From: a virus
Length of the DNA stretch: 32,268 nt
Virus record (IMG/VR): IMGVR_UViG_3300017969_003627
Coordinates: 1 to 32,268 of that record
Direction: 5' to 3' (one strand)
How positions within the stretch are numbered: the first letter of the stretch is position 1; each line of letters opens with the position of its first letter. Of the stretch, positions 9,929-28,237 are shown piece after piece. The notes beneath the pieces were generated by a model. The model saw only the letters and a list, made by a program, of their open reading frames with translations, was not told where the DNA came from and made no database searches. The position numbers were made by a program, and so were the translations under genes.

Positions 9929-10388
9929 AAAATGGCATAGAAAAAAAGACTACGAAACACTGGTCAAATGGTGGAATCAACATGAGTTTGGAGTGGTACC
10001 TCAAGAAGTTTTACCCCCGGACGGAATAATGATTGAAAAAGACGGAGTTCCAATTTGTGCAGGTGGTTTGTACATAGGTAAAGGTACGAGATTTGCCTTC
10101 ATGGAATGGGTAGTAGGAAACAAAGAAGCGAATAAAAGAGATCTACACACAGGTCTCAAACTCTGTATCGACTCCTTATTTCAATTGGCAAAGGACAAAG
10201 GAATGGATTTAGTGTTTACAACCACCGGACAAGAAGCATTACAGAAAAGATATACCAAATATCATGGCATGGAATTAACTGAAAATGCAGTCAAAACCTA
10301 TCTTAAAGACCTTAAAGGTAACACCTATAAAAAATTGGATTGGATACAGGATGATGAGCAAATAAGCAAACGTTATTCTAATAAATAG
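9918..10388 (+). CDS. GNAT-like N-acetyltransferase (putative)
   Basis: This 156-residue protein has the compact alpha/beta pattern of GNAT acyltransferases: an N-terminal helix with 'LVKWWNQHEFG', a strand 'VPICAGGLY' (about 44-52), the central strand 'FAFMEWVVGN', a helix 'GLKLCIDSLFQLAKDKG', and a final 'LQKRYTKYHGMEL' that resembles the 'Y.K.GF' end of GNAT folds. A canonical acetyl-CoA pyrophosphate loop (Q/R-x-x-G-x-G/A) is not clear, so the activity is provisional. Similar proteins occur near fibre genes of T4-like marine phages. It is the last of a three-gene enzyme block inserted among structural genes; the substrate could be an amino sugar or a fibre residue (inference). Confidence 0.58.
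   Translation: MKSRKWHRKKDYETLVKWWNQHEFGVVPQEVLPPDGIMIEKDGVPICAGGLYIGKGTRFAFMEWVVGNKEANKRDLHTGLKLCIDSLFQLAKDKGMDLVFTTTGQEALQKRYTKYHGMELTENAVKTYLKDLKGNTYKKLDWIQDDEQISKRYSNK
10380..10387 (+). promoter_or_regulatory. T4-type late promoter-like octamer
   Basis: AATAAATA matches the NATAAATA late-promoter pattern of T4-like cyanophages. It ends 21 bases before the ATG of the first micro-gene (10409), leaving room for the AAGGA Shine-Dalgarno at 10393-10397. It would allow separate late transcription of the two micro-genes and fibre paralogue C after the enzyme block. It overlaps the stop codon of the GNAT-like gene. Confidence 0.4.
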
Positions 10389-13394: not shown

Positions 13395-13709
13395 ATGGAT
13401 TTATCTGACTTAAAAAAACAATCGGATCTAAGTTTCGAAGTAGCAACGGCCAAAAGGAATGCTCTGGAAAGAGCAAGGTCCAGACAAGTTGTTGCTTATA
13501 ACGGTTCTATATTTTCTGCGGATGCTGATACCATCAACCTAGTTGACACATTAAAAAAAACACACAAAACATTTTTCATTCTAGACAGCAACGAAAATCC
13601 CTGCGAAATAACCAACCCAGAAGAATTTTTAGAAATACTGTTAAAACGAAATCAAGAAGCACTAAACGAATATCATCAATTATATAATCAATTAAAAAAA
13701 AGGGTTTGA
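13395..13709 (+). CDS. Small protein resembling phage fibre-assembly-associated DUF4376-like proteins
   Basis: This 104-residue soluble protein has a helical N-terminus ('FEVATAKRNALERARSR'), a short 'VAYNGSIFSADADTI' strand-turn, then 'FFILDSNENPCEITNPEEF', and a closing helix 'YHQLYNQLKKRV'. The order of helix, 'YNG..F.AD', 'DSNEN...IT..E', and terminal helix ending in 'LK..I/V' resembles the DUF4376-type domain found near phage tail-fibre genes. The assignment is from pattern memory and is tentative. Lying just after the fibre genes fits a chaperone or fibre-accessory role. No Shine-Dalgarno precedes the ATG, and the promoter's predicted start point coincides with it. Confidence 0.55.
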   Translation: MDLSDLKKQSDLSFEVATAKRNALERARSRQVVAYNGSIFSADADTINLVDTLKKTHKTFFILDSNENPCEITNPEEFLEILLKRNQEALNEYHQLYNQLKKRV

Positions 13710-13710
13710 T

Positions 13711-14460
13711 ATGTCAGCAGGTGTATTAATCTACTGTTTTGATTCGGAAAAAATCAAATATCATACAGTTACTAATTTCTGCATTCAGCAGATCAAAAAA
13801 CATTTAAATCTTCCCGTGACAGTGGTCACTAATGAATCGACAAAAAAATTTTTAAAGGATGTTGACAGCACAGTGGTCATAGAAAATAAGTCAGGAAATA
13901 AAAGAGTTTATAAAAATAAAACTGTGGATTGGTTCAATTTAGAAAGAGCAAAATCCTATGAGTACACTCCCTATGACACAACAATACTATTAGATGCCGA
14001 CTATTTTGTTTACACAGATAATTTGTTACAATTTGTTGATACTGGTTATGATTTTTTATTACACAACAAAGTACATGACCTAACCGGTAGAAATAAATTC
14101 GAATACAGTTCGTTAAGTATGTTACCTATTGTTTGGGCAACAGTGACTATTTTTAAAAAAAATAAAACAACCGAAAACATATTTCGATTGATACAACACA
14201 TACAACACAATTACAATTATTTTTGTAATCTATACAGGATAGATTTTAAGAACTTCCGCAATGATTATGCTTTTGCGATTGCTATGCATCAACTGAACAT
14301 CAAAAATTACATACCGGTTAAAATGAGTATGTTACCCACAGATGTTGACATATTAGAAATTAATGATTCTTCAATTAAGTTCCGATATGCTGATTGTGTT
14401 GGTATGACGGAAAAACAAGATGTACACATTCTAAACAAGGAGATACCAATCGATGTCTAA
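13711..14460 (+). CDS. GT-A-fold glycosyltransferase-like protein
   Basis: This 249-residue protein begins with a nucleotide-sugar-type Rossmann half ('GVLIYCFDSEKIKYH', then 'LPVTVVTNE') and has a D-A-D motif at 95-97 in 'TILLDADYFVYTDNL', the metal and nucleotide-diphosphate binding site of GT-A enzymes. 'MLPIVWATVTIFKK' and 'FRNDYAFAIAMHQL' fit the later acceptor-side strands and the helix seen in small glycosyltransferases. It would transfer a sugar from a nucleotide donor in the cytoplasm; donor and acceptor are unknown. AGGG lies 12 bases before the ATG. It overlaps the next glycosyltransferase-like gene by 8 bases. Confidence 0.72.
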   Translation: MSAGVLIYCFDSEKIKYHTVTNFCIQQIKKHLNLPVTVVTNESTKKFLKDVDSTVVIENKSGNKRVYKNKTVDWFNLERAKSYEYTPYDTTILLDADYFVYTDNLLQFVDTGYDFLLHNKVHDLTGRNKFEYSSLSMLPIVWATVTIFKKNKTTENIFRLIQHIQHNYNYFCNLYRIDFKNFRNDYAFAIAMHQLNIKNYIPVKMSMLPTDVDILEINDSSIKFRYADCVGMTEKQDVHILNKEIPIDV

Positions 14461-15259
14461 AGGTTTTCTATGGTTTGCACAGAACAACGAAAAAACAGAT
14501 TATGCTAAATTAAGTATCGAGTTGGCAAAATCTATTAAACAACACAATAATGAAAACCTAATATGTGTTGTCACGGATAAACTGACAAAAATTAATAGCG
14601 ATTATATAGATTATGTTGTTGTTTTAAAAGATGACAACAGCGAGAAGCATTCAAACAAATTTTCAAACGAATACAAAGCATTTGGTTTGACACCGTTTAC
14701 ACATACAATTAAATTAGAAGCCGATATGTTGTTCACATCCTGCACTGACGAATGGTGGAATCATTTAGGACAGCACGACATGGTGTTCTCGATCAATTGT
14801 AGAAATTATAAAGATGAAATTATTAATAATAGTCCTTATAGAAAAATATTTAATAAAAATTTATTGGCAGATGTTTATAACGGAATGTTTTATTTTAGAA
14901 AAAGTGTTTTATCTAAAAAATTTTTTGATATTTGCAAAACAATTACACTAAATTGGAGCACAGTAAGAGATGAAATGTTGATTAATTGTCATGACGACGT
15001 ACCGACAACAGATGTAGTTTATGCTCTTTCATTGAGAATTTTAGATCCCACGAATCAATTATTGGTAGACTATCCATGGTTTAAATTTATACATAATAAA
15101 CCTGGAATAAACAACACAGAAAGTGTCATGGATCAACACAATTATCTTTATCCAACACGACTCGCTGATAGGATGTATCTGGGAGGTAAGAGATTAAACA
15201 GGGTATGGCATTATTATCAAAAAGACACAACGGAGTTATTGAATGACCGAATTTTTTAA
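14453..15259 (+). CDS. GT-A-fold glycosyltransferase-like protein
   Basis: This 268-residue protein opens 'GFLWFAQNNEKTDYAKLSIELAKSIKQ' with a following 'LICVVTD' strand. The metal-binding position reads E-A-D (89-91, 'TIKLEADMLF'), a conservative variant of DxD preceded by the typical 'YKAFGLTPF' helix. 'YNGMFYFRKS' and 'TTDVVYALSLRI' correspond to the acceptor-side part of the fold, and 'WHYYQK' near the end supplies a late His. It resembles the upstream gene in size and layout but not closely in sequence, so it is probably a different specificity. It overlaps both neighbours by 8 and 17 bases. Confidence 0.68.
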   Translation: MSKGFLWFAQNNEKTDYAKLSIELAKSIKQHNNENLICVVTDKLTKINSDYIDYVVVLKDDNSEKHSNKFSNEYKAFGLTPFTHTIKLEADMLFTSCTDEWWNHLGQHDMVFSINCRNYKDEIINNSPYRKIFNKNLLADVYNGMFYFRKSVLSKKFFDICKTITLNWSTVRDEMLINCHDDVPTTDVVYALSLRILDPTNQLLVDYPWFKFIHNKPGINNTESVMDQHNYLYPTRLADRMYLGGKRLNRVWHYYQKDTTELLNDRIF

Positions 15260-15548
15260 CGCATTAGGTAATTTCAAGCCTAGGAAAAGAAAACCAGATC
15301 TGGTGACCATAGATGGAAAAATTATGGAAGTGTCTCACGAAACAATGTTAGAAATACAAAAATCAGGAATAGAACAATGGATGTTGGACAGTGATGGCAA
15401 GATTGTAAAAAAACCTATCAAAAAGACCGGCAGAATATTTAATGAACTTAAAAAATCAAAAGAAGGATATGTGTTCTTAGATGGAGATCCATATTGGCCC
15501 GTAGGATTCAAGGAAGGGGGATACACATGGCAGACACCGTTAGAATAA
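15243..15548 (+). CDS. Hypothetical protein (101 aa)
   Basis: This small soluble protein is rich in Lys and Gly and has no recognised domain. Visible features are a basic N-terminal patch 'FKPRKRKPD', a beta hairpin 'VTIDGKIMEVS', 'EQWMLDSDGKIVKKP' and a C-terminal 'GYVFLDGDPYWPVGF...YTWQ'. The start overlaps the preceding glycosyltransferase gene by 17 bases, and the end overlaps the next by 22 bases, so it belongs to the same translation chain. The overlaps on both sides and the absence of a better frame support it as a real gene. The function is unknown; a small partner of the flanking glycosyltransferases is one possibility. Confidence 0.6.
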   Translation: MTEFFNALGNFKPRKRKPDLVTIDGKIMEVSHETMLEIQKSGIEQWMLDSDGKIVKKPIKKTGRIFNELKKSKEGYVFLDGDPYWPVGFKEGGYTWQTPLE

Positions 15549-16414
15549 GTGATTTAGATTTTGTGTTCATATCTTTTTATGAACCCAACAAGGAAGAAAA
15601 TTATGCTAATCTATTAAACATCGTGCCTTGGGCAAAACGTGTGGATGGAGTCAAAGGTTTTGATAATGCACACAAAGCCGCGGCAGAGATCGCAGAAACA
15701 GATTTTTTTATATCCATAGACGGAGACAATGTTATTGATCCTTCATTTTTATTACAAAAATTAGATTGGACGAAAACTAATAAAAAAGCAGTACACAGAT
15801 GGAAAGCAAAAAATTCAATAAACGGATTGATATATGGCAACGGAGGAGTCGTTGGATGGGATAAAGAAACCTGTTTGAAAATGAAAACCCACGAAAATGC
15901 AGAGGACGAAAAAGCCAAAATAGATTTTTGTTGGACAGTACCTCATGAAAATTTACATAATGTTTATAGTAATACAGTAATCAACTTTTCACCGGAGCAG
16001 GCATTTGTTGCCGGATTTCGAGAAGGTGTAAAGATGAGTTTAGATCAAGGTAATAGAATTTCACCTTTGGATTTTTCAAATAAGATACATCAACACAATT
16101 TACGAATATTGTCCATATGGCAAAGCATCGGGGCAGATGTTGAATATGGAAAATACGCCATGTTAGGTGCAAGAGTTGGTTGTTATCAAGCAACCATAAA
16201 AAGTAATTTTAATTTAGAAAATGTTAGAAACTTAGACAGTTGTAAAAGTTTTTTTCATGCAATCAATGATTTGGATGAAGATATAGAAATGTACGGAAAT
16301 AGTCTGAAACAAAAATTAGATATTCCAATCAGCACTTTTAATGCCGAAGGCAGTCGTTTTTTTAAATTTTGTCAAAAACCTTATGTTAATAAAGGAGTGC
16401 AGGATCGTGAGTAG
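15527..16414 (+). CDS. GT-A-fold glycosyltransferase-like protein
   Basis: I take the ATG at 15527, giving 295 residues, because a strong purine-rich ribosome site (AAGGAAGGGG) lies just upstream; the frame is open to a TTG 33 bases earlier, which lacks this support. The protein has 'FVFISFYEPNKEENYANLL' at the N-terminus, 'VPWAKRVDGVKGFDNAHKAAAE', and a D-G-D motif (65-67) in 'FISIDGDNVIDPSFL', typical of family-2-like GT-A glycosyltransferases. 'LIYGNGGVVGWDKE' is a plausible acceptor loop and 'GVKMSLDQGNRI' follows. The substrate is unknown. Its last 8 bases overlap the first radical SAM gene. Confidence 0.7.
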   Translation: MADTVRISDLDFVFISFYEPNKEENYANLLNIVPWAKRVDGVKGFDNAHKAAAEIAETDFFISIDGDNVIDPSFLLQKLDWTKTNKKAVHRWKAKNSINGLIYGNGGVVGWDKETCLKMKTHENAEDEKAKIDFCWTVPHENLHNVYSNTVINFSPEQAFVAGFREGVKMSLDQGNRISPLDFSNKIHQHNLRILSIWQSIGADVEYGKYAMLGARVGCYQATIKSNFNLENVRNLDSCKSFFHAINDLDEDIEMYGNSLKQKLDIPISTFNAEGSRFFKFCQKPYVNKGVQDRE

Positions 16415-17777
16415 TGTTTACAAATCAGATGCCGAGAAAGCCAAGGAAAAATTACTTTCAATTTCGCCTACGATGTGTCTAGCAAAATGGAATCAGGTGT
16501 CTTTACATCTACCCACTGGATTAACCAATTCATGTTATCATCCTCCACTGCATGAGATTGATAAAGATTCGCTGGCATCAAATCCAGCGGCATTGCACAA
16601 CACCGAAGAAAAAATTCGACAACGAAAACAAATGATCGCAGGTGAACGACCTGCAGGTTGCTCTTACTGTTGGAAAATGGAAGACACTGGCGAAATGAGT
16701 GACCGACACTATCGTTCTGGTGAGCCATGGGCCATGGAGGATTTTGATAAAATTAAGCAAGATCCTTTTAATACAACACATACTCCTCGTTATGTAGAAG
16801 TCAATTTTAACAATGCCTGTAATTTTGCTTGTTCCTATTGTTCTCCTCAATTTTCAACAACGTGGGGTAAAGAAATCAATATGTACGGTGGATATCCTAC
16901 ATCACCTGTACACAATGACCCGACACATTTCTCAGGAAGAAGACAACCCATACCAAATAGAGAATCTAATCCGTATGTGGAAGCATTCTGGAAATGGTGG
17001 CCTGAATTGTATAAGGGATTGAAACATTTTAGAATGACTGGAGGAGAGCCCATGATGGATGTGAACACTTACAAGGTATTTGATTACATCATAGATAATC
17101 CAAAAAAAGATCTACACCTAAATGTAACTTCGAATATGTGTCCACCTGATCCCAAGTTAAAAACAAGATATTTTAATGCAGTTAGTCGTATTTGCCATGA
17201 AGAAAAAGTAGAACATTTCATGCAGTTCGTCTCTGTAGATACCTGGGGTAAACAAGCAGAATATATTCGTAATGGTCTTGATTACAACAAAATGTTAGAC
17301 AACGTAGATCATTTTTTGACAATGATTCCTGTACGTAATTCAGTTACCTTCATAATAACCTATAACAATCTTAGTGTCACGGGTCTAAGAAAGTTACTTG
17401 AAGATATCAAGCATCTTCGAGAAAAACATTCAACCACGTATCAACGAGTATGGTTCGATATACCCATACTACGTCAACCAGAATGGCAACAAGTAACACT
17501 ATTACCCGAATCGTATCAAGAGATACACAAAGACAATATCGAATGGATGAAATCGAATTCGGGAGAGAATCAAAAAGATTTTTCGTTGTTTAAAGATTTT
17601 GAAATACAAAAAATGCAACGTAATCTTTCTTATTGGCAAAAAAATTATACCGATGATAAAAAACAAAAAAAGAATTTTTACACATTTTTTACAGAACACG
17701 ATCGTAGACGAAGAACAAATTTTGAAAAAATATTTCCTGAAATGCGAGAGTTTTGGGAGGAGTGTAGAAACTCATGA
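16407..17777 (+). CDS. Radical SAM protein with N-terminal twitch domain, copy 1
   Basis: I take the GTG at 16407 as start (456 residues) because AAGGAG lies 9 bases upstream; an ATG at 16341 would add 22 residues lying within the previous gene. The N-terminal ~90 residues hold four cysteines (C24, C43, C85, C88) in 'C.AKW ... C.HPP ... ERPAGCSYC', the pattern of a twitch/SPASM-like auxiliary iron-sulfur domain placed before the catalytic core. The radical SAM motif is C138-x3-C142-x2-C145 ('CNFACSYC'), with GGEP at 212-215 for SAM binding. It should cleave SAM to a 5'-deoxyadenosyl radical; the substrate is unknown. It is the closest relative of copy 2. Confidence 0.88.
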   Translation: MSSVYKSDAEKAKEKLLSISPTMCLAKWNQVSLHLPTGLTNSCYHPPLHEIDKDSLASNPAALHNTEEKIRQRKQMIAGERPAGCSYCWKMEDTGEMSDRHYRSGEPWAMEDFDKIKQDPFNTTHTPRYVEVNFNNACNFACSYCSPQFSTTWGKEINMYGGYPTSPVHNDPTHFSGRRQPIPNRESNPYVEAFWKWWPELYKGLKHFRMTGGEPMMDVNTYKVFDYIIDNPKKDLHLNVTSNMCPPDPKLKTRYFNAVSRICHEEKVEHFMQFVSVDTWGKQAEYIRNGLDYNKMLDNVDHFLTMIPVRNSVTFIITYNNLSVTGLRKLLEDIKHLREKHSTTYQRVWFDIPILRQPEWQQVTLLPESYQEIHKDNIEWMKSNSGENQKDFSLFKDFEIQKMQRNLSYWQKNYTDDKKQKKNFYTFFTEHDRRRRTNFEKIFPEMREFWEECRNS

Positions 17778-18373
17778 GCACAATAGGTTTTTTTGGAGAT
17801 AGTTTCTGTGCCAGCAATCAATCCGAGAGTTGGTGTAATATACTTCAAGAGAAATTAGGTTGTGATCGTATACGATGGTTTGGCGAACCTGGAAGAAGCA
17901 TATGGAGTGTATTTTTTAGGTTTAACAAATTGATAGAACAAGATCGTGTTCCGGATTATTCGATATTTTGTTGGACAGAACCATATAGACTATACCATCC
18001 GAATTTGATATTGAGTGCCAACACAGAACCACTGGAAGGAGTAGACCCAGACATTTATAAAACACTGGAAAATTATTGGAAACATTTACACAATTATGAC
18101 AAAGACGAATTAGCATACGAGTATGCTTTGAAATATTATGATCAACACGTTTTATCTAAATTACAAAACAAAAAAATAATACAGATGTGGAGTTTTAAAC
18201 CATTTGAAACGGCAGACAAAAATGCCAATATAAAATTAACAACAGGAATATTCATCGATGAAAGTATGTTCAGTTTCAGTGGTGGCCGAGATCATTGGGG
18301 CAAAGGAAAAATAAATCATATGACGATTGAACAAAATAAACAGTGGGCAGAGAAAGTGTTTAAGTACATATAA
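17774..18373 (+). CDS. SGNH/GDSL-type hydrolase-like protein (short form)
   Basis: This 199-residue protein starts 'STIGFFGDSFCAS': GDS at 8-10 is block I with S10 as likely nucleophile. 'GEPGRSIWSV' (37-46) fits the block II glycine, and 'INHMTIEQNKQWAEKVF' (180-196) supplies a late histidine, H182, as expected for block V. There is no signal peptide, so it acts in the cytoplasm. SGNH enzymes remove or transfer acyl groups on sugars, lipids or peptidoglycan. Its start overlaps the radical SAM copy 1 stop by 4 bases and its stop shares a base with the copy 2 ATG, so it is embedded in the radical SAM array and probably works on the same product. Confidence 0.72.
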   Translation: MSTIGFFGDSFCASNQSESWCNILQEKLGCDRIRWFGEPGRSIWSVFFRFNKLIEQDRVPDYSIFCWTEPYRLYHPNLILSANTEPLEGVDPDIYKTLENYWKHLHNYDKDELAYEYALKYYDQHVLSKLQNKKIIQMWSFKPFETADKNANIKLTTGIFIDESMFSFSGGRDHWGKGKINHMTIEQNKQWAEKVFKYI

Positions 18374-19716
18374 TGAAAGATATAGATTACAAAAAACAGT
18401 TTTTAGATTCGATATCTCCATCGTTTTGTGGAGCAAAATGGTACAATGCTACCATATGGCTGGGATCTGGCATGACCACAAGTTGCCACCATCCGCCAGC
18501 ACACAAAGTTGATCTTGCTAAAGTAACGCAGAATCCAAAATTGTTACACAATACTCCGGAAAAGAAAAACGATCGTGCCAAAATGATCGCGGGAGAAAGA
18601 CCCGCAGGTTGTGAATATTGTTGGAAGATAGAGGACATGAAAAGAGATGCTGTAAGCGATAGAGTATATAAAAGCAAAATATATTCTAATGCAGACATGA
18701 TAACAGCAAGCCAGACTCCTATAACCGAAGATATCAATCTCAAAACTTTAGAAATTGCATTTGATAGAACTTGTAATTTTGCTTGTTCTTACTGTAATCC
18801 TGCATTTTCGTCGACATGGGCAAACGACATCAAACAAAAAGGACCCTATACAGATTTAAAATCAGACGGACGTAATCATTTCACACATTCTCATGAAGAA
18901 TCACAACCGTATAAATTGAATGAGACCAATCCGTATGTGGAAGCATTTTTTAAATGGTGGGATTCGGACCTACATAAAACTTTAGATGAACTAAGAATAA
19001 CAGGTGGAGAACCAATGATGTCTCCTCACCTATGGAGATTGCTAGATTGGATAGAAACCCAAGGTGATAAAATGAATCCAGATATGCGTATTGCTATGAA
19101 TTCTAATCTAGGAGCAAAACAAAGCATAATCGATGATTTTAAAACTAAACTAAAAGGATTTAAAAACTTTCATTTATACACCAGTAATGAAGCAACTTTT
19201 AAACAAGCAGAATATATCAGAGATGGATTGGATTATGGAGATTGGTTCAGCAGAGTGTTACACATGATGGTAGATAAAGTGCCGGTAGAGATCCACAATA
19301 TGTGTACAATCAATGCATTATGTTTAGAGTCGTTACCGGAATTTCTTGAAAAGATTGTTTGGTTCAAACATTCTAGCAAGGTCTATGGACCAAAGATTAA
19401 TTACACACTCAACATATTAAGATTTCCTAGTTTCCAATCACCGTTAGTATTGCCCGACGAATTAAGAAACAGATTTAAAGGTGACATTGAAAAATTTTTA
19501 ACGAACAACGAAAAATGGTTGGAACAAATGGAAATAAATCACACAACACGATTAATAGATTACCTTGATGTGGTCAAAACACCACACGCAGGTGCGGCCA
19601 CACAGGATAAATTACAAAAAGATTTTAAGGCATTTTATAGTCAATATGACAAACGTAGGGGCAAGGATTTCAAAAAAACTTTCCCAATTATAGGAGAATG
19701 GTACAATGGCATATGA
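18373..19716 (+). CDS. Radical SAM protein with N-terminal twitch domain, copy 2
   Basis: This 447-residue protein has the same layout as copy 1: N-terminal cysteines C19, C38, C80 and C83 ('SFCGAKW', 'SCHHPP', 'AGCEYC'), the radical SAM motif C134-x3-C138-x2-C141 ('CNFACSYC') and GGEP at 211-214. Shared stretches with copy 1 include 'MIAGERPAGC', 'NPYVEAF.KWW', 'QAEYIR.GLDY' and a 'DKRR....F...FP' tail, so the two are recent duplicates compared with copies 3 to 5. The start ATG overlaps the stop of the SGNH gene. The target is unknown; radical chemistry on a sugar or peptide is likely. Confidence 0.88.
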   Translation: MKDIDYKKQFLDSISPSFCGAKWYNATIWLGSGMTTSCHHPPAHKVDLAKVTQNPKLLHNTPEKKNDRAKMIAGERPAGCEYCWKIEDMKRDAVSDRVYKSKIYSNADMITASQTPITEDINLKTLEIAFDRTCNFACSYCNPAFSSTWANDIKQKGPYTDLKSDGRNHFTHSHEESQPYKLNETNPYVEAFFKWWDSDLHKTLDELRITGGEPMMSPHLWRLLDWIETQGDKMNPDMRIAMNSNLGAKQSIIDDFKTKLKGFKNFHLYTSNEATFKQAEYIRDGLDYGDWFSRVLHMMVDKVPVEIHNMCTINALCLESLPEFLEKIVWFKHSSKVYGPKINYTLNILRFPSFQSPLVLPDELRNRFKGDIEKFLTNNEKWLEQMEINHTTRLIDYLDVVKTPHAGAATQDKLQKDFKAFYSQYDKRRGKDFKKTFPIIGEWYNGI

Positions 19717-20998
19717 GTACGGGGCCAAAGAGCCTGAAAAATTAAAAATAAAAGACATGACCGATAGGGAGAAAGAGTTACTGATCGAAAGTGACACTTT
19801 CTGTATACTACCTTGGATGCATCTTCATGCATATCCTGATGGCAGAGCGTATCCTTGTTGTTTTGCGTTTGATCCTTATCCGGTGGGAAATCTAAATGAA
19901 AACAGCATGGAAGAAGTTTTCAACGGTGACAAAATGAAAGACATGAGAATACGTATGCTGAACAATCATAAATCTCGAGAATGTATGAAATGTTACGATC
20001 AAGAGAAATCTGGATTTTTTAGCCTACGTCTAAGTTCTAACAAACATTTTGGTCATAACATTCCGTTAGTACACAACACGCTTCCAGACGGCAAAGCAGA
20101 TTTTGTTATGAAATATTGGGATATACGTTTTTCAAATTTATGTAACATGGCTTGTAGGAGTTGCGGAACATGGTTCAGTAGTAACTGGTATGAAGATCAC
20201 AAAAAACTTACAGGTAGTCCTCCTCCACACGCCAAGGTAATGAAAGTTGGTAGAAGCACAAATGATCTATGGGAACAGATGCTAGAACAGTTTGAGCACA
20301 CAGAACAGTTTTATTTTGCTGGTGGAGAGCCAATAATAATGGAAGAACATTATCGTATTTTAAAAGAACTAGACAAACGTAAAATGTATCATGTTAGGCT
20401 TATATACAATACCAACTTTAGTAGAACGACATTTAAGGACATAGATGTTTTTGAATTATGGAATAAATTTGATTCAGTGTCAGTTGGAGCCAGTCTCGAT
20501 GCCGAGGGTCCTAGAGCAGAATTAATGCGTAAAGGCACAGTGTGGGAACAAACAATAGCCAATAGAAAGCGTATGATGGAAATATGTCCGCAAGTGGACT
20601 TTTATATCAGTTCAACGGTGGGACTTATAAACAGTCTTCATGTCACTGATTTCCATAAAAGTTGGGTAGAACAAGGTCTGATTAAACCACAAGATTTTAA
20701 TTTTAATTTATTACAACATCCTATATGGCAACGGATGGACATATTGCCGCCGGAATATAAAGAACAAGTGAAAGAGAAATACAATGAACACATCAAATGG
20801 TTGAAGGACCAGGATTCCCTTACTAGGGCAACAAAAGGTTTTGAATCTGCATTGGATTGGATGTTCTCAACAGATAACCAAAAACATCTAGATCTATTTT
20901 TTGTTAATACACGGAGATATGATAAGATAAGAAATGAAAATACTCTTGAAATATTTCCAGAATGGAAAGAGTTATTTGACAAATATGAAAAAAATTAA
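19706..20998 (+). CDS. Radical SAM protein with N-terminal twitch domain, copy 3
   Basis: This 430-residue protein has the clearest N-terminal twitch/SPASM-like module of the set: C33 ('FCILPWMHL'), C51-C52 ('DGRAYPCC'), 'PVGNLNENSMEEVFN', then C93 and C96. This matches the usual C-terminal SPASM order, but placed before the catalytic domain. The radical SAM motif is C146-x3-C150-x2-C153 ('CNMACRSC') and GGEP lies at 206-209. 'YNTNFSRTTF' is shared with copy 4. AGGAG lies upstream of the ATG, which overlaps copy 2 by 11 bases. Such proteins are known from T4-like marine phages but have no defined substrate. Confidence 0.88.
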   Translation: MAYEYGAKEPEKLKIKDMTDREKELLIESDTFCILPWMHLHAYPDGRAYPCCFAFDPYPVGNLNENSMEEVFNGDKMKDMRIRMLNNHKSRECMKCYDQEKSGFFSLRLSSNKHFGHNIPLVHNTLPDGKADFVMKYWDIRFSNLCNMACRSCGTWFSSNWYEDHKKLTGSPPPHAKVMKVGRSTNDLWEQMLEQFEHTEQFYFAGGEPIIMEEHYRILKELDKRKMYHVRLIYNTNFSRTTFKDIDVFELWNKFDSVSVGASLDAEGPRAELMRKGTVWEQTIANRKRMMEICPQVDFYISSTVGLINSLHVTDFHKSWVEQGLIKPQDFNFNLLQHPIWQRMDILPPEYKEQVKEKYNEHIKWLKDQDSLTRATKGFESALDWMFSTDNQKHLDLFFVNTRRYDKIRNENTLEIFPEWKELFDKYEKN

Positions 20999-22298
20999 GC
21001 CTAACGAAGGCAATAAAACATTTTGTATGGCGCCTTGGACGCACACATACCTTTCTCCACAAACAGAAAGGCGTATGTGTTGTGCTTCAAGAGAACCAGC
21101 ACAAAGTTTTAAGCAGTACATAGATACAGGAAATGATGCCAATGAGTATAAACCTCTAACGTTAGAAGAACATTGGAATTCAGAACATATGCGTTCTGTG
21201 AGACGAAGAATGCTAGCCGGAGAAGAATTATCCGAATGCCAGGTATGTGATCATAAACTGTTGAATACAAATGTCTATAGATCTTATTGGAACAAACTCT
21301 TTGCTAATAAAATAGACGAAGCATTTGAAAGCACAGACGAAAACGGAGCAACCACAATGCCTACGATAAGTTTTGATTATAGATTTAATAATCTATGTAA
21401 TTTCAAATGTAGAATGTGCGGAGATATGTTGAGTTCCAGTTGGGAAGCCGAGTCGAGGAAAAACAAAACATGGAACGAAGATTCTCAACCATGGATGGCT
21501 TCTCCGTTGCGTGAACAAATTAAAAATTTTCAAGACACACAAATAGTACAAGAGTTTACTGATGCGATAGAAACAAAAAAAATAAAAGAAATATATTGGT
21601 GTGGCGGAGAACCGTTGATGTGGGAAATACACTGGAACAGTATGCAAAGGATAATTGATTTGGGATTTTCAAAGGATGTTTATGTTAGATATAATACCAA
21701 TTTAAGTAGAACAACATTTAAGAATATTGATCTTTTTAAGTTGTTGCCACAGTTTCAGGATTGGCAAATATGTGCTTCGATCGACGGAACAGGAGATGTG
21801 GGAGAATACATACGTGATGGATTGAATTACAAAGAATGGTTAGGTAATTTTAAAAAAGGATTGGCGGTAGCAAAAACATCAAGGGAAATGAGATTAGATT
21901 TCACAATCACAATGCCAGGATTATTAGAATTAAAAAATATGTTTGATCTGAGCCAGGAATTAGATGTAGAAATATTGACCAAAGTGATGTTCACTTTTAG
22001 TGCATCGGCTGTGTTGAGTCCGTTGGCATTGCCTAGAGAACTCATGTGCGAAATTATAGATGAAGCATTAGAATACATGGAACCAAAGGCAAACAGAAAA
22101 CAACAGGCATTGATAGACACTCTCAAAAATTTAAAGATGAGAGAAAATATCGATGATATGTTTTTGGGATTTGATGCTTTCAGGGGAAAAAAGAGTGGTA
22201 AGAGCAGACAAGAATCAATCGATAAATTAAGGAATCAAGACATAACAAAAATACTTGAAAAAGATAAAAGGATATTAGACTGGTGGAAAAATATTTAA
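20985..22298 (+). CDS. Radical SAM protein with N-terminal twitch domain, copy 4
   Basis: From the ATG at 20985 the protein has 437 residues; the frame also offers an ATG at 20934 that would overlap copy 3 by 65 bases and adds nothing conserved. The N-terminal cysteines are C14 ('FCMAPW'), C32-C33 and C85/C88 ('SECQVC'). The radical SAM motif is C138-x3-C142-x2-C145 ('CNFKCRMC'), with GGEP at 207-210. It shares 'YNTNLSRTTFKNID' with copy 3, and the 'YIRDGLNYKEW' segment with copies 1 and 2, so it bridges the two sub-groups. The gene overlaps both neighbours by 14 to 16 bases. Confidence 0.87.
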   Translation: MKKIKPNEGNKTFCMAPWTHTYLSPQTERRMCCASREPAQSFKQYIDTGNDANEYKPLTLEEHWNSEHMRSVRRRMLAGEELSECQVCDHKLLNTNVYRSYWNKLFANKIDEAFESTDENGATTMPTISFDYRFNNLCNFKCRMCGDMLSSSWEAESRKNKTWNEDSQPWMASPLREQIKNFQDTQIVQEFTDAIETKKIKEIYWCGGEPLMWEIHWNSMQRIIDLGFSKDVYVRYNTNLSRTTFKNIDLFKLLPQFQDWQICASIDGTGDVGEYIRDGLNYKEWLGNFKKGLAVAKTSREMRLDFTITMPGLLELKNMFDLSQELDVEILTKVMFTFSASAVLSPLALPRELMCEIIDEALEYMEPKANRKQQALIDTLKNLKMRENIDDMFLGFDAFRGKKSGKSRQESIDKLRNQDITKILEKDKRILDWWKNI

Positions 22299-23482
22299 AA
22301 AGTAATATGTGTCATCTTCCATGGACTAGTTTAGAAACTAGGCCCGATGGCAGGTACAAGCCTTGCTGTTTGTATAGGGAAGAATTGAAAGACACTTCCG
22401 GGAAAAAATACAATACAACGGAACATTCGATATCGGAAGTAATGAATTCCGATGCCATGGATGATTTGAGAAAACAATTTTTAAATGGAGAAAAACCCAG
22501 TAGTTGTAGCAGTTGTTGGAAAGAAGAAGCAGTAGGTAAAACTTCAAAGAGACAACATATGTGGTTAAAGGCAGGAGTAATAGGTCAAACTCATATACAA
22601 AAAAATATAGTTTCGCCTAGATTTATTGATTTAAAGTTAGGGAATATTTGTAATCTAAAATGTAGAATATGTTCGCCTCACTCAAGTTCTCAATGGACGA
22701 ACGACATGATCAAGATAGACCCAAACAGAAAAGACTATTGGAAAAAATTCAATCGAGATGGATTATGGCCAAGACAGCCTAACAAATTTTATGAAGATCT
22801 AGAGAAGCACATAGACTCGATAAGATTTTTTGAGATCACGGGCGGAGAGCCATTAATGATAAAAGAGCAATTTTCAATTTTACGTAAGTGTGTGGAAGCA
22901 GGAGTGGCAGATAAAATAGAAGTTCATTACAACACCAATGGTACACAGTATCCGGAAGAAGCAGTAAAAGACATTTGGCCACATTTTAAAAGGGTAGAAA
23001 TAGCATTCAGCATTGACGATATTGAAAAACGTTTTGAGTATCAAAGACATCCTGCTGTATGGACAGAAGTTGATTCAAACATAAATCGATTTTTAAATTC
23101 AGGATTAAAAAATCTTTCTACGCAGATATGCACAACTCTAAATTTTTTTAACATATGGAACATTGACGAGTTAGCACATAAAGTAAAAGAATGGAATCCA
23201 GATTTTTGGTACATAAACATATTGCATCATCCTGTGGAGTTTGATATACAACAGATTCCTAGAGAGCTCAAGCAACAGATAATTGACAAACTTAGAAAAA
23301 CTGAAATATACCAACAAGAAATACAGACGGCTATTGACTATATTAACGGAGAACCTGACTACAAGATTAAGGATTGGAAAAAAGCATTAACTGAAAAAAT
23401 AAAATCAATCGATTCCGTCAGGAAAGAAAATTTTGGAGAAACTTTTAAGGATTTAAATAATCTATTAAAGATTTATGAGTGA
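22283..23482 (+). CDS. Radical SAM protein with N-terminal twitch domain, copy 5
   Basis: The start is GTG at 22283, with AAAAGGA ending 10 bases upstream; an ATG at 22307 lacks a ribosome site. The 399 residues are the shortest of the five. N-terminal cysteines are C10 ('MCHLPW'), C28-C29 ('YKPCCLYR'), C75 and C78 ('SCSSCW'); the radical SAM motif is C123-x3-C127-x2-C130 ('CNLKCRIC'), and GGEP lies at 187-190. 'VHYNTNGTQYP' and 'IAFSIDDI' are typical core strands. It closes the array and overlaps the second SGNH hydrolase gene by 8 bases. Confidence 0.88.
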   Translation: MEKYLKSNMCHLPWTSLETRPDGRYKPCCLYREELKDTSGKKYNTTEHSISEVMNSDAMDDLRKQFLNGEKPSSCSSCWKEEAVGKTSKRQHMWLKAGVIGQTHIQKNIVSPRFIDLKLGNICNLKCRICSPHSSSQWTNDMIKIDPNRKDYWKKFNRDGLWPRQPNKFYEDLEKHIDSIRFFEITGGEPLMIKEQFSILRKCVEAGVADKIEVHYNTNGTQYPEEAVKDIWPHFKRVEIAFSIDDIEKRFEYQRHPAVWTEVDSNINRFLNSGLKNLSTQICTTLNFFNIWNIDELAHKVKEWNPDFWYINILHHPVEFDIQQIPRELKQQIIDKLRKTEIYQQEIQTAIDYINGEPDYKIKDWKKALTEKIKSIDSVRKENFGETFKDLNNLLKIYE

Positions 23483-24284
23483 CGTATTGGTAGCAGGTGG
23501 TTGTAGTTTTACATTTGGTAACGAATTATCTGACGACGATGGTATCAATCCTTCAAAAATGTCATGGGCGGCATTGTTGTCACAACAAACAGGCATGGAT
23601 TTTGTCAATTCGGCAAAAGGAGGGTTAGGGAACTCCGGTATAGCCAGAAGGGTGTTCAACGCAGTTTCGGACAACGATAACAGAAAGGTTGCTGTGACTG
23701 TCATGTGGACTTTTCCTTCACGTTATGATTGGGCGATGCCTAGACATAACATATTAGAAGATACTCGTTGGGCCACTATAACCCCCTGGGACTGTACAGA
23801 AAACGAAGCAGAAGTATTAAAAACTTTGATAGGTAATGATTCAGTAATACGAGATTTTAAAAAAAGAAGAAAAGAATTTTCTGATGCGAAAGTCACAGCA
23901 TTTGCCGATTCACTTTATAAGAATGCGGCAAATCGTTATCATGAAACATATCTAAGTTGGAAAAGCATCGTTTGGTTACAAAATATATTAGAAAAAAAGA
24001 AAATACCATTTATGTTTACACTCGCCGATAACACATTATTCTGGGAAGAATTTGAATTATTATACCAAAACGACAAATTATTAAAAAATCTTTTAAAAGA
24101 AATAGATTTTACCAAATGGTTCACTTTTGGAGACAGGCATATGGGATTTAACCAATGGGCACTTTTAAATGACTATCCGAGAGCATCAACTCATCCGCTT
24201 GACCAAGCACATAAAGATGCTATAATGTTAATGTTACCCGAATTTAAAAAAATAATAGGAGAAAAAAATGATCAAATGGATTAG
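23475..24284 (+). CDS. SGNH/GDSL-type hydrolase-like protein (long form)
   Basis: This 269-residue protein begins 'DVLVAGGCSFTFGNEL': GCSFTFG replaces GDS, with S11 the likely nucleophile, a variant common in SGNH proteins of phage and surface-glycan clusters. 'SAKGGLGNSGIARR' (47-60) supplies the block II glycine and asparagine. 'RASTHPLDQAHKDA' (235-248) provides the late histidine (H240 or H246) in the usual 'HP...AH' setting. No signal peptide is seen. It differs strongly from the 199-residue SGNH protein inside the array, so it is a separate recruitment. Acyl removal or transfer on a glycan is the most likely chemistry (family knowledge; substrate unknown). Confidence 0.78.
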   Translation: MSDVLVAGGCSFTFGNELSDDDGINPSKMSWAALLSQQTGMDFVNSAKGGLGNSGIARRVFNAVSDNDNRKVAVTVMWTFPSRYDWAMPRHNILEDTRWATITPWDCTENEAEVLKTLIGNDSVIRDFKKRRKEFSDAKVTAFADSLYKNAANRYHETYLSWKSIVWLQNILEKKKIPFMFTLADNTLFWEEFELLYQNDKLLKNLLKEIDFTKWFTFGDRHMGFNQWALLNDYPRASTHPLDQAHKDAIMLMLPEFKKIIGEKNDQMD

Positions 24285-24373: not shown

Positions 24374-25036
24374 ATGAAAACAGTACACAATTGGTTTTTG
24401 CCAGACTATGATGTTCATTATGAAGAATGGATGCGTATCAACAATGAAACAACGTATCAACGCCTTCAACGAGAATATGCATTGGCCAGAGTAAAACAAT
24501 TTCGAAAAGCAATTGATATAGGTGGCAATATTGGATTTTGGAGCAAAGATTTTTGTAATAAGTTCAATGAAGTGATAATTTTTGAACCGGATCCGTCAAA
24601 TATTAAATGTCTTAAAGAAAATTTAAAAACCTATAAAAACTTCACTTTACATGAAGTTGGTTTAGGTAGTAAAGAAGAAGTCAAAGAATTTTATATCAGT
24701 CCTACAACATCAGGAGGACATAGTTTTTTTAGAGATCAAATATTTGAAGATAATGTTGATAAATCTGAATTACAAGTAAAAAAATTAGATGATTTTAAAT
24801 TTACCGATGTTGATCTAATAAAGATTGATACACAAGGCAGTGAATACGACATCTTATTAGGCGGCGAAGAAACACTACGAAATAATGACTGTGTATTGAA
24901 CGTGGAAATAGAACATAAAAATGAAGCACAAAGAAGAAAAGGAAAACAAATAATAGAGTTTTTAGACAGTGTGGGATATAAAGAATTTGGGAGATCAAGA
25001 AAAAAAGAAGTAGTTTTTACAAAATGGAAAAATTAA
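24374..25036 (+). CDS. FkbM-family SAM-dependent methyltransferase
   Basis: This 220-residue protein shows the class I methyltransferase core: motif I 'AIDIGGNIGFWS' (46-57), the acidic end of strand 2 'IIFEPDPSN' (68-76), and the FkbM-typical 'LIKIDTQGSEYDIL' (148-161). FkbM enzymes methylate hydroxyl groups, often on sugars of surface glycans or natural products. In this setting O-methylation of a sugar is the natural inference. It starts one base after the micro-protein stop and overlaps the next gene by 13 bases. Confidence 0.87.
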   Translation: MKTVHNWFLPDYDVHYEEWMRINNETTYQRLQREYALARVKQFRKAIDIGGNIGFWSKDFCNKFNEVIIFEPDPSNIKCLKENLKTYKNFTLHEVGLGSKEEVKEFYISPTTSGGHSFFRDQIFEDNVDKSELQVKKLDDFKFTDVDLIKIDTQGSEYDILLGGEETLRNNDCVLNVEIEHKNEAQRRKGKQIIEFLDSVGYKEFGRSRKKEVVFTKWKN

Positions 25037-25587
25037 AAGAAAAAATAAACAATATTTTTCGAAAGAATTCTAAATTTAATTTGATCGAAATGAATGATAT
25101 AGATATAACAGAGGATCCGGTGAGACCGGAATTGTCTCTCACATTTCGTACTATCTACGGAAGAAAAATTTATGGACTCAAAAACAAAAATGGTGATATC
25201 ATGGCAATCATATGCATAGCATTCACAAATGAAATCCCCACAACAGTCGAAGAACTAGATATGTTGAGTCGTGATGCGGCCGGTCCGTCGGTGTTGCGGG
25301 CAGGCATAGTGGGAAAAATAGCAGTTGCTTATACAGTTTGGGCCAAAATGAAAGGTGGCGGAAAACACATATTAAACGAAATTTTTAAAAAATTTAAAAG
25401 AGAACAACACATAGAAAGATTAGTCACTTTAAGTCCTTTGACAGAAATGGCCGAAAGGTTTCATATAAAGAACGGAGCAAAACTATTACAACGCAACGAC
25501 ACAACACAAAATTTTGAATATGACATTACACTGGAACAATGGAACAAGTATTTAGAAAGAGCGAAAGGGTTTTTTAAACTAAAATGA
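25024..25587 (+). CDS. GNAT-like acyltransferase (putative)
   Basis: This 187-residue protein has a beta strand 'IMAIICIAFTNEIP' (about 59-72), a central 'GKIAVAYTVWAKMKGGGKHIL' region in which 'KGGGK' could be a variant acetyl-CoA loop, followed by a helix, 'ERLVTLSPLTEMAERFHIKNGAKLL' and 'TQNFEYDI'. The latter resembles the GNAT end 'A..F..K.GA...' plus closing strand. The fold assignment is by pattern and moderate only. An acyl transfer to an amino sugar made by the downstream aminotransferase would fit the cluster, which is inference. It overlaps the kinase gene by 4 bases. Confidence 0.52.
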   Translation: MEKLKEKINNIFRKNSKFNLIEMNDIDITEDPVRPELSLTFRTIYGRKIYGLKNKNGDIMAIICIAFTNEIPTTVEELDMLSRDAAGPSVLRAGIVGKIAVAYTVWAKMKGGGKHILNEIFKKFKREQHIERLVTLSPLTEMAERFHIKNGAKLLQRNDTTQNFEYDITLEQWNKYLERAKGFFKLK

Positions 25588-26021
25588 AAATATTGATAAT
25601 GGGACTACCCGGATCGGGCAAAACTACATTGGCAAAAATGATAGCACCAAGGTTGAATGCTGTATGGCTAAATGCTGACAAGATAAGAGAAGAATGCAAT
25701 GATTGGGATTTCTCAGACGAAGGCAGAAAGAGACAAGCACTGAGGATGTGGACGTACGCCGAAGAGGCGTTAGACAAAGGCAGAGTTGTGATTGCTGATT
25801 TTGTTTGCCCCACTGAAGAAACAAGAGCACAATTCAAAGCAGATTATCTGATATGGATGGACACAATCAAAGAGGGTAGATTTGAGGACACCAACAAACT
25901 TTTTCAGCCACCGACAACGTTTGATTTTAGATGTACATCAAAAGATGCTGAGACTTGGGCATTTTTGATAACACAGGAAATACGAGATATAATATGGGAG
26001 AAGAAAAATGTGGGACAATAA
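25584..26021 (+). CDS. APS-kinase-like P-loop kinase
   Basis: This 145-residue P-loop protein has Walker A GLPGSGKT at 7-14, then 'VWLNADKIREECNDWDFSDEGR', 'VVIADFVCPTEETRAQF' and 'DTIKEGRFEDTNKLFQPP', all closely matching the order of motifs in adenylylsulfate (APS) kinases. It is shorter than typical CysC (about 200). It could phosphorylate APS to PAPS, a sulfate donor, or have been redirected to a sugar or nucleoside hydroxyl. It overlaps the nucleotidyltransferase gene by 14 bases, so the two probably act in succession. Confidence 0.8.
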   Translation: MKILIMGLPGSGKTTLAKMIAPRLNAVWLNADKIREECNDWDFSDEGRKRQALRMWTYAEEALDKGRVVIADFVCPTEETRAQFKADYLIWMDTIKEGRFEDTNKLFQPPTTFDFRCTSKDAETWAFLITQEIRDIIWEKKNVGQ

Positions 26022-26373
26022 AAAACCAACAGCACAAATGCTAGGAAGATGGCAACCGTTCCATGACGGGCACTATAAATTGTTCCAGGAGATACACAAA
26101 AAAACAGGGCAGGTATTGATAATGGTCAGAGATGTGCAAGGTGTTGATGACAATCCATTTGATTTTGAAACTGTTAAGAAAAATATTGAGGAAAGGCTCA
26201 ATCCCAAGTTTGAAGGGCAGTTCAAAGTGATACTAGTACCCAACATAACAAACATATGTTATGGCAGGGGTGTGGGTTACAAAATAGAAGAAATAGTGTT
26301 AGATGAAGAAACTCAAAAGATATCCGCAACAAATATAAGACAACAGATGCGTGATCGTGGAGAACTGATATGA
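26008..26373 (+). CDS. HxGH-type nucleotidyltransferase
   Basis: This 121-residue protein carries the HxGH motif at 19-22 inside 'GRWQPFHDGHYKLF', and the second family motif ISATNIR at 105-111. This identifies the cytidylyltransferase/adenylyltransferase superfamily (relatives include TagD, NadD, CoaD and NadM). At 121 residues it is a minimal version similar to TagD-like enzymes. It would couple a phosphorylated small molecule to CMP or AMP. GGGAGAAG lies before the ATG. Directly following a kinase, it could make a nucleotide-activated building block for the glycosyltransferases (inference). Confidence 0.83.
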   Translation: MWDNKKPTAQMLGRWQPFHDGHYKLFQEIHKKTGQVLIMVRDVQGVDDNPFDFETVKKNIEERLNPKFEGQFKVILVPNITNICYGRGVGYKIEEIVLDEETQKISATNIRQQMRDRGELI

Positions 26374-26753
26374 GAGAAGATCTAATGGTACAACAGCAGG
26401 TCAAAAACAAATGGCAACACATGGTAGGTGTTATCTGCCTCAATCAAACTTACAGAAAACAAGCCAAACGTGTTTTAAGTGAATTATTCAAACGATATCC
26501 GAATGCCAAAAGTTATCTCAAAGGTAGATTATCAGCACAGCAAAAATTATTAAAACCTTTGGGAATGTGGCGTGTGAGATCGGAAAGATTGAGAAAAATG
26601 AGCGAGCAATTTTTAAACTGGAATGGTGAAGATGCGTCGGATCTACACGGAATAGGAAAATATGGCAGTGATAGTTATAGGATATTTTACAAAAATGAAA
26701 TACCTACCGATGTACAGGATAAAGAATTAAAAAAATATATAGAATCTTTATGA
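26370..26753 (+). CDS. MBD4-like HhH-GPD DNA glycosylase
   Basis: This 127-residue protein aligns by eye with the catalytic domain of MBD4 mismatch DNA glycosylase: 'ICLNQTYRKQAKRVL', 'LLKPLGMWRVRSERL', then 'LHGIGKYGSDSYRIF' (92-106), the helix-hairpin-helix with its GIG loop, and 'QDKELKKY' (116-123) with D117 at the position of the catalytic aspartate. MBD4 removes T or U from G mismatches. The protein is slightly shorter than the MBD4 catalytic domain at both ends. It overlaps the nucleotidyltransferase gene by 4 bases (ATGA) and the carbamoyltransferase by 4. A DNA repair enzyme inside a biosynthetic run is unexpected; it could act in repair, host DNA attack or DNA modification. Confidence 0.8.
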   Translation: MREDLMVQQQVKNKWQHMVGVICLNQTYRKQAKRVLSELFKRYPNAKSYLKGRLSAQQKLLKPLGMWRVRSERLRKMSEQFLNWNGEDASDLHGIGKYGSDSYRIFYKNEIPTDVQDKELKKYIESL

Positions 26754-28237
26754 GAATATTAGGAATAAATTGTATGAATCATGATGCCGCCATGGCTGTG
26801 GTTGACGGCCGAGATATTCTATGGGCCGCACATAGCGAGAGATACAGCAAGATAAAAAATGATCATCACCTGAACTGGGGGATAGTGAACGAGGCAATGA
26901 GTTATGGTCCTTTTGACAAAGTGGTGTATTATGAAAAACCATGGTTAAAAAAGAGACGACAGATTAGAGCGGGACAATGGTCGGAAGTTTTTACAACACA
27001 GAATCTGCCATCGGAACATTTAAAACAGTTTGGAATCAAAATTGACCAGTATGTAGATCATCATCATTCGCATGCGGCCGGAAGTTTTTTCACATCGCCC
27101 TTTACAGATTCCATGGTGTTGTGTGTGGATGCCATAGGAGAATGGGAAACTATGACTATATGGAAAGCCAAAGGCAACGAAATAGAAAAACTGGAAAGCA
27201 TGGAATATCCTCATTCATTGGGAATCTTATATTCTGCTTTTACACAAAGAGTTGGATTGAAACCCGCAGAGGAAGAATACATATTGATGGGAATGTCAGC
27301 ATACGGAACACCAAAGTACCGAGATAATATCTACAATGAATTGTTGGATTATCGAACTCTGGAATTAAAAAGAAATTTACACAGAGGAATAGGAAATTGG
27401 TTACCGGAAGCGGATCCCATGGATCTTGCCGCATCCATTCAAAAAGTCATACAAGAAGCACTCACTCATATATGGCAATGGAGTACGACTTACATACCAG
27501 ACGGACAACGTGCTGTGAGCAAATATGGTGAAAGTCGTAATTTATGTTATGGTGGAGGCGTGGCATTGAATTGTGTGGCCAATGCAATTTTAATGAACAA
27601 GAAAATATACGATAAATCATGGATCATGCCCAATCCCGGAGATGCGGGTAGTTCGTTGGGTTGTATAGCCGCTTCGATGCACAGACACCTAAATTGGAAA
27701 CATCCATTTTTGGGCACGAACATAGAGGGTGAATATCCTGTGGATGCTCTCATAAAGGAATTGTTGGAAAATAAAATGGTGGGAGTGGCCAATGGTCGGG
27801 CGGAGTTTGGACCAAGAGCACTTGGTAATAGATCATTACTTGCTGATCCTAGAGGATCAAAAATCAAGGATTTGGTAAATGGTATTAAAAAAAGACAGAA
27901 GTTTAGACCATTCGCACCAGCCATATTAGAAGAGGATGTGAACGAGTATTTTACCCTACCTAAAGGTGTTAAAAACACCCCTTATATGCAACACACAGCG
28001 GTTTGTACGCATGGTAAAGACTTTCCTGCCATAATACACTACGATAACACGAGTAGGGTTCAAACAGTGTCTAAAGCAGACAATCCAGGTTTTTATGAAT
28101 TGCTTACGCAATGGAAAAAGAAAACAGGTTGCCCTATACTGCTTAACACCAGTTTGAATATAAAAGGACAACCTATAGTAAATGACAAAGATGATGGTAA
28201 AGCATTTACCAACAAATATGGAGTAAAAGTTTTATGA
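26750..28237 (+). CDS. NodU/CmcH/TobZ-family O-carbamoyltransferase
   Basis: This 495-residue protein shows the N-terminal ASKHA-like start 'ILGINCMNHDAAMAVVDG', 'HHHSHAAGSF' (104-113), 'CVDAIGEW', 'YGGGVALNCVAN' (267-278) and the C-terminal domain signature 'GRAEFGPRALGNRSLLADPR' (349-368) followed by 'FRPFAPAIL'. These are diagnostic for carbamoyltransferases that use carbamoyl phosphate and ATP to carbamoylate hydroxyls of sugars (NodU) or antibiotics (CmcH, TobZ). It is somewhat shorter than typical members (about 550-600). Carbamoylation of a sugar made by this cluster is the likely role. It overlaps both neighbours by 4 bases. Confidence 0.92.
   Translation: MRILGINCMNHDAAMAVVDGRDILWAAHSERYSKIKNDHHLNWGIVNEAMSYGPFDKVVYYEKPWLKKRRQIRAGQWSEVFTTQNLPSEHLKQFGIKIDQYVDHHHSHAAGSFFTSPFTDSMVLCVDAIGEWETMTIWKAKGNEIEKLESMEYPHSLGILYSAFTQRVGLKPAEEEYILMGMSAYGTPKYRDNIYNELLDYRTLELKRNLHRGIGNWLPEADPMDLAASIQKVIQEALTHIWQWSTTYIPDGQRAVSKYGESRNLCYGGGVALNCVANAILMNKKIYDKSWIMPNPGDAGSSLGCIAASMHRHLNWKHPFLGTNIEGEYPVDALIKELLENKMVGVANGRAEFGPRALGNRSLLADPRGSKIKDLVNGIKKRQKFRPFAPAILEEDVNEYFTLPKGVKNTPYMQHTAVCTHGKDFPAIIHYDNTSRVQTVSKADNPGFYELLTQWKKKTGCPILLNTSLNIKGQPIVNDKDDGKAFTNKYGVKVL

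Follow-up and report, generated by a model that had tools for sequence, protein, structure and literature searches.

We describe five genes encoding radical S-adenosylmethionine (SAM) proteins with an N-terminal twitch domain, which lie side by side at positions 16407–23482 of a viral DNA stretch of 32,268 bases (IMG/VR record IMGVR_UViG_3300017969_003627; the whole stretch is hereafter referred to as the window). As established by comparison of their sequences with those of related loci, the five proteins (A to E) are maintained together as a set of five non-redundant members, whose catalytic motifs are intact and whose partners recur. The set is carried by hundreds of large T4-like viruses infecting sea and lake bacteria and has counterparts in Bdellovibrionota. 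We consider that A–E very probably act as one co-operating system, and that these enzymes most likely make or edit a building block for a glycoconjugate of the virion or of a surface.

The five radical SAM genes and their conservation

Five open reading frames (ORFs) in the 16407–23482 region, all on the plus strand, code for radical SAM (rSAM) proteins of the N-twitch type, all of them full-length and without internal stops. Each of them matched the NF033640 (N_Twi_rSAM) profile end to end with 297.8–397.2 bits, as compared with the cut-off of 170, and a search of the window's own record found exactly A–E and none besides. rSAM A (456 residues; 16407..17777; 326.8 bits) has the twitch cysteines C24, C43, C85 and C88, the core cysteines C138, C142 and C145, and GGEP at residues 212–215; it starts with a GTG codon preceded by AAAGGAG, and the mechanically defined ORF opens at 16341. 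The corresponding cysteines are C19, C38, C80 and C83, followed by C134, C138 and C141, in rSAM B (447 residues; 18373..19716; 297.8 bits), and C33, C51/C52, C93 and C96, followed by C146, C150 and C153, in rSAM C (430 residues; 19706..20998; 397.2 bits). rSAM D (438 residues; 20982..22298, with the mechanical ORF opening at 20934; 316.3 bits) has C15, C33/C34, C86 and C89, then C139, C143 and C146, and rSAM E (399 residues; 22283..23482; 361.1 bits) has C10, C28/C29, C75 and C78, then C123, C127 and C130. Pfam detected the SPASM signature at the N-terminus of three proteins (C, with 2.6e-13, D and E) and the rSAM core in all five, mostly below the cut-off.

To obtain relatives, IMG/VR was scanned with each protein, yielding 588 for A, 456 for B, 75 for C, at least 599 for D and 5 for E. 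Overlapping loci were merged into 206 viral stretches, and the 1,019 full-length homologues were clustered. Five large clusters emerged (190, 195, 197, 181 and 181 members), one for each window gene, and every other cluster had 10 members or fewer. The median identities to the window proteins were 57% (A), 60% (B), 52% (C), 53% (D) and 40% (E), and the identities between the orthologue groups were 22–32%. All five orthologues were present in 155 of the 159 stretches having enough sequence beside A or D; these stretches, which span about 50% identity, are related and partly near-identical and do not represent 159 independent tests. The gene order was ABCED in 93 of them and ABCDE, the window's type, in 50, with small variations in the remainder. 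Three of the four incomplete stretches lack E alone, the last gene.

Alignments of a diverse subset of each orthologue group showed no variation in the twitch cysteines, CxxxCxxC or GGE; CxxxCxxC and GGE were found in all of the 942 group members, and the N-twitch pattern in 937. The ratio of nonsynonymous to synonymous substitution rates (dN/dS) was 0.11 for E in the one scorable comparison, synonymous sites being saturated in the other pairs. In a tree of the phage and bacterial members, constructed by a quick method and containing several long branches, a supported branch set each of the A, D and E groups apart, and B and C contained only a few bacterial intruders. A sixth or further paralogue is sometimes present in the arrays. 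Because of the profile scores and the conservation across hundreds of contigs, the array is not due to chance, and, to judge from the sequences, it is neither decay nor a redundant duplication. Co-divergence of A–E was dropped as a diagnostic, the correlations being no higher than those with a neighbouring tail gene.

The arrays are tightly packed. Array-internal junctions were 20 bp or shorter in 889 of 914 cases, and no small ORF of a precursor-like kind recurred in the gaps at these 914 junctions, which leaves room for a precursor encoded at a distance. In several loci array proteins are fused, some of the fusions being possibly sequencing errors: A and B form one polypeptide in L306; C and E are joined in L294, L295 and L301, which probably represent one lineage and agree in length; and B is fused to an SGNH-like protein in L096, the family of which differs from that of the SGNH-like protein encoded between A and B in the window. 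In L150, L153 and L293, a domain of about 175 residues with a GxGGNRYY motif is fused at the N-terminus of rSAM A.

These results confirm much of what a preliminary description of the window had claimed, namely five N-twitch rSAM genes with intact cysteines and no decay; the genes are of full length, score above the family cut-off and lack internal stops. Its cysteine motif stands as C-x17/18-C(C)...CxxC followed by CxxxCxxC and GGE(P), with the qualification that the CC doublet is absent from A and B. The genes are clustered as described, but the run is interrupted by the SGNH gene at 17774–18373, which splits A from B. For a single transcription unit, the sole basis is the overlap of the same-strand genes (junctions of -1 to -17 bp); promoter and terminator scans of the window gave results at chance level, and the late promoter TATAAATA had 0 matches, with a chance expectation of 3.45. 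The preliminary description had also named, as a finding that would count against a maintained system, homologous arrays that always vary in copy number and have no conserved partners. We found instead one-to-one orthologues in nearly always complete sets, together with recurrent partners: a protein family designated X8, a carbamoyltransferase and a glycosyltransferase module.

X8, bacterial relatives and phage carriers

X8 has no sequence match in Pfam or the PDB. In 80 X8-anchored loci, D was nearby without exception, directly upstream of X8 in every listed arrangement, and the carbamoyltransferase gene was present in 75. X8 tracks the gene order, occurring with 115 of 122 ABCED arrays versus none of 52 ABCDE arrays, and neither of two ABCDE phage records, of 139 and 197 kb, contains it. 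Its structure was predicted confidently, with a predicted local distance difference test score (pLDDT) of 87; comparison of the model with PDB folds gave nothing significant, the recurrent best matches being cyclophilins at E > 0.5. X8 was also found in 20 of 291 Bdellovibrionota genomes. All these 20 have A-type rSAMs, which occur in 3 of 19 X8-negative Bdellovibrionota genomes not chosen for D.

When genomes were scanned with A, the matches were phage contigs that had been placed in metagenome-assembled genomes (MAGs) by binning, and one Bdellovibrionaceae MAG, UBA1609. The phage contigs (L318–L321, probably also L323 and L324), which have full or partial arrays and reside in MAGs of Betaproteobacteria, Rickettsiales, Pelagibacter, Verrucomicrobia and Neomarinimicrobiota, may represent contamination or a host signal, and were rejected as cellular evidence. 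The A profile was matched in 45 of 141 genomes of the order to which UBA1609 belongs. D-type enzymes are rarer, found in 12 of 291 Bdellovibrionota genomes and, save for a phage contig in the centre MAG, in none of about 300 Pseudomonadota genomes. Single A or D–E genes also occur in bacteria. Bdellovibrionota carry A–D type enzymes, and in one case a complete array, L527 (B-D-E-C-E-A-B), which is chromosomal, as the genes for ribosomal protein L21 and Obg directly adjoin it; glycosyltransferase-2 and NTP-transferase-like genes were recognized nearby by eye. On a 2.66-Mb contig (G051/L356), genes of the A, B, B, D and E-like types are found in the vicinity of genes for SGNH, glycosyltransferase-2 and NTP-transferase proteins, as identified with Pfam. 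The tree places the A group of the phages within the bacterial A genes and one bacterial D gene as the sister of phage D; for B and C, it is the bacterial genes that fall inside the phage groups. As a separate observation, G082, G113 and other Bdellovibrionales genomes show an expansion of N-twitch-like rSAM genes, the number of candidates at first look reaching about 40 in a genome.

Among 18 array-bearing records tested, 16 encode the T4-type major capsid protein Gp23. It was not found in the covered part of an 84-kb near-identical relative of the window, which is itself a 32-kb fragment. The number of NF033640 members per record was 4–13 in 18 large array-bearing records, showing that N-twitch copies are also dispersed outside the array. 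In keeping with this, the T4-like genome TARA_ERS488813_N000010 has 12 rSAM genes (PMC5332604), and pelagimyophages have rSAM gene cassettes in their host-recognition clusters (PMC7029224). A-type Fe-S carrier genes (PF01521) were found in only 6 of 18 array records (G647, G649, G650, G651, G654 and G655), one or two in each, and were dropped as a regular companion of the array. Searches of cultured phages returned only the Vibrio phages K566 and K567 with A and D, at 23–25% identity, and weak KVP40-type matches with E; a DNA-level search with the array found nothing.

Among the open-licence papers searched, we found none that describes A–E as a fixed set, the fusions, X8 as a partner or arrays in bacteria. 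As a fixed set, the five genes appear not to have been described before; the NF033640 family and the multiplicity of rSAM genes in T4-like phages are known. Two elements of the preliminary description should accordingly be revised: known phage members are not just single genes, and the set occurs outside viruses too. What survives of its interpretation is the maintained, non-redundant set of five.

Genes surrounding the array

Most arrays have two GT8/glycogenin-like proteins and GTb, a probable glycosyltransferase, upstream, and SGNH-like proteins and the carbamoyltransferase downstream. In the window, where all the genes below are on the plus strand, the upstream module consists of p104, a small protein (13395..13709; in 130 contigs), GTa1 (13711..14460; glycogenin profile match of 1.2e-4; cluster in 169 contigs), GTa2 of the same GT8/glycogenin-like family (14453..15259) and GTb (15527..16414; cluster in 198 contigs), which directly precedes A. 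GTb had 0 database matches, and its conserved IDGDN motif is the sole basis of the assignment. In 80 GTb-anchored loci, p104 was present in 77 and an rSAM gene within 6 kb in 69.

The SGNH-hydrolase-like protein encoded between A and B (17774..18373) was assigned by its GDSFC motif and has no Pfam match; members of its family lie between A and B in 15 of 27 cases and after D in 8. A second SGNH-like protein (23475..24284; 137 contigs), of a weak family with conserved GxS and H, overlaps the 3′ end of E. It is followed by an FkbM-type methyltransferase (24374..25036; TIGR01444, 3.1e-25), an adenylylsulfate (APS)-kinase-like P-loop kinase (25584..26021; PF01583, 1.1e-10), a cytidylyltransferase-like protein (26008..26373; PF01467, 2.7e-5) and the NodU/CmcH-type carbamoyltransferase (26750..28237; PF16861, 7.7e-53; PF02543, 1e-43; 156 contigs). 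Further downstream are an NAD-dependent sugar epimerase/dehydratase (28234..29178; PF01370, 8e-50), a DegT/DnrJ/EryC1 aminotransferase (29153..30223; PF01041, 1.1e-65) and a second protein of the GTb cluster (30213..31514).

Upstream of the array, the window encodes fibre-type proteins; genes for VrlC and gp14, between which the host-recognition cluster of T4-like (Gp23) phages is placed, were not recognized. Three of the fibre-type proteins (4240–5766, 5777–7279 and 10759–12369) are paralogues sharing an N-terminal domain (phrog_15511), which represent several fibre alternatives in one phage. The region also encodes a Gly-rich tail/adhesin-like protein (7284–8699), which is similar in its C-terminal part to a Hint (intein/hedgehog) domain (PF05203; the value of 2.8e-3 does not reach the cut-off), and, at 8692–10388 among the fibre genes, probable 2-oxoglutarate-Fe(II) oxygenase, short-chain dehydrogenase/reductase and GNAT genes, recognized by eye.

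Possible functions and comparison with known systems

From what is known of the family, each of A–E would bind an AdoMet-cleaving [4Fe-4S] cluster at CxxxCxxC together with one auxiliary cluster housed in the N-terminal twitch, and would generate 5′-deoxyadenosyl radicals. The fusions and the tight packing suggest that A is paired with B, and C with E, as complexes or in channelled succession; a precedent is provided by TrnC and TrnD, two rSAMs that form a complex and act jointly (PMC12093266). In the ABCED type, D may be paired with X8. Together, the five enzymes would carry out successive hydrogen abstractions, leading to oxidation, deoxygenation, epimerisation or cross-linking of a building block, which the glycosyltransferases, SGNH acyl-hydrolase/transferases and carbamoyltransferase would assemble into a glycoconjugate displayed by the tail fibres or at the surface of the infected cell. 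It is the neighbouring genes that point to a glycoconjugate as the destination of the product, including the glycogenin-like GTa, the epimerase, DegT, FkbM and cytidylyltransferase-like genes of the window and the genes near the bacterial arrays L356 and L527; the fold of A, closest to that of BlsE in a mixed list, also speaks for it. As to the substrate, we regard the chances that it is a glycoconjugate as evenly balanced, and the joint account, in which co-operating radical enzymes modify a glycoconjugate building block, is the one that we favour, with slightly less than even confidence. More tentatively, A–E, with X8 in one branch, could be an unknown rSAM assembly line of aquatic T4-like phages and Bdellovibrionota that introduces a modification new to biomolecules into a virion or cell-surface glycoconjugate or protein.

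Several observations weigh against a glycoconjugate. The array appears to reside in a host-recognition or lipopolysaccharide-type region, so that glycan genes are expected near anything located there, and the glycosyltransferase module is broader than the array because 11 of the 80 GTb-anchored loci have no rSAM gene within 6 kb. The window's ABCDE sub-type is without X8, and in several bacteria A-type rSAM and X8 genes occur without nearby glycan genes (L531 and L327). The glycan-rich surroundings and these bacterial gene pairs are the strongest objections. Moreover, the AlphaFold2 model of rSAM A (pLDDT 90.6) has BlsE, SkfB, SuiB and viperin as its closest folds, with EpeE and MoaA also in the list. 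The peptide maturases SkfB and SuiB are about equal among these matches, and because the E-values of the four closest are spread over no more than one to two orders of magnitude, the fold of A does not decide the substrate class. In UBA1609, an A-type gene (L322, 9956–11386) adjoins three flagellin genes and lies downstream of a FliW-like gene; it might serve in the modification of flagellin or of a flagellar glycan.

An alternative, unlikely but appreciable in our estimate, is that A–E introduce modifications like those of ribosomally synthesised and post-translationally modified peptides (RiPPs), such as cross-links or epimerised residues, into a virion protein (tail fibre or adhesin) or a host surface protein, with X8 binding the substrate in the ABCED type. 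The best-known SPASM/twitch enzymes use peptides, the E profile matches SkfB (6efn, 6.5e-7), the A model matches SkfB, SuiB and EpeE, the array stands directly behind the fibre genes, and the bacterial A-type gene in L322 has flagellin and FliW-like neighbours; in L531, moreover, A-type rSAM and X8 genes overlap by 4 bp as a two-gene unit, and the cyclophilin folds recurring for X8, though non-significant, would fit a protein substrate. Nevertheless, the arrays have no recurring precursor-like small gene, the glycosyltransferase and carbamoyltransferase partners persist, and the flagellin context was seen in one of about 20 bacterial loci, for which reason flagellin was rejected as a general partner.

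That A–E are independent auxiliary metabolic enzymes acting in parallel on several small molecules of a related kind (nucleotide-sugars or nucleotides), and are held in one place by selection for co-expression, seems rather improbable. The dispersed N-twitch copies of the 18 large records, the lone A or D–E genes of bacteria and the likeness of the fold to BlsE, viperin and MoaA, all acting on nucleotides, are compatible with it, but the same five types stay together in 155 of 159 stretches and neighbours are fused. Antiviral nucleotide chemistry of the viperin type, or phage–phage exclusion, is highly improbable: the weak cross-matches of A–E to viperin and pVip models reach at most 30.8 bits, as compared with the cut-off of 180, the match to the PADLOC model is limited to the common rSAM core, and viperin-type proteins lack the N-terminal twitch. 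Neutral tandem duplication without joint function is the least credible explanation. Although the genes are paralogues of one family, with a sixth or further copy at times, their ancient divergence (22–32% identity), one-to-one conservation and essentially invariable motifs contradict it already, and the dN/dS value for E agrees with this.

Five oxygen-sensitive Fe-S enzymes, amounting to about 7 kb, are retained by these viruses despite genome-size pressure, over large sequence distances and at many sampling sites; no chemistry of such value to phages is known. The five-part set with X8 provides a defined unit for expression, L527 and L356 provide cellular counterparts, and the Vibrio phages K566 and K567 might offer a laboratory system for N-twitch rSAM clusters.

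Among known systems, NF033640 includes A–E as full-length members far above its cut-off; this family is defined gene by gene without a function, with no separation into five orthologue groups or a joint array. The phages of PMC7029224 and PMC5332604 are likewise aquatic and T4-like, with rSAM genes beside tail fibres and glycosyltransferases, but the descriptions found there are of variable cassettes or counts, not of a fixed set of five, its order, fusions, X8 or bacterial counterparts. The isolated Vibrio phages K566 and K567 also have grouped N-twitch-like rSAM genes (L325; OZ196521.1, 161548–168284), which form a separate clade in the tree, with its long branches, and are not one-to-one orthologues of A–E. 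BlsE, a cytosylglucuronate decarboxylase acting on a nucleoside-sugar, is the top fold match of A (E 1.8e-5), although its identity to A is 14%, with template modelling (TM) scores of 0.34–0.45, and the likeness is mainly in the common rSAM core. The SPASM/twitch RiPP maturases (SkfB and SuiB; TrnC/TrnD) share with A–E the rSAM core and a Cys-rich auxiliary-cluster domain, and provide a precedent for co-operating rSAM pairs. These maturases, however, carry the auxiliary domain C-terminally and have the gene of their precursor peptide as a neighbour, whereas in each of A–E the four twitch cysteines come before the rSAM core, and no embedded precursor was found at the junctions of the arrays.

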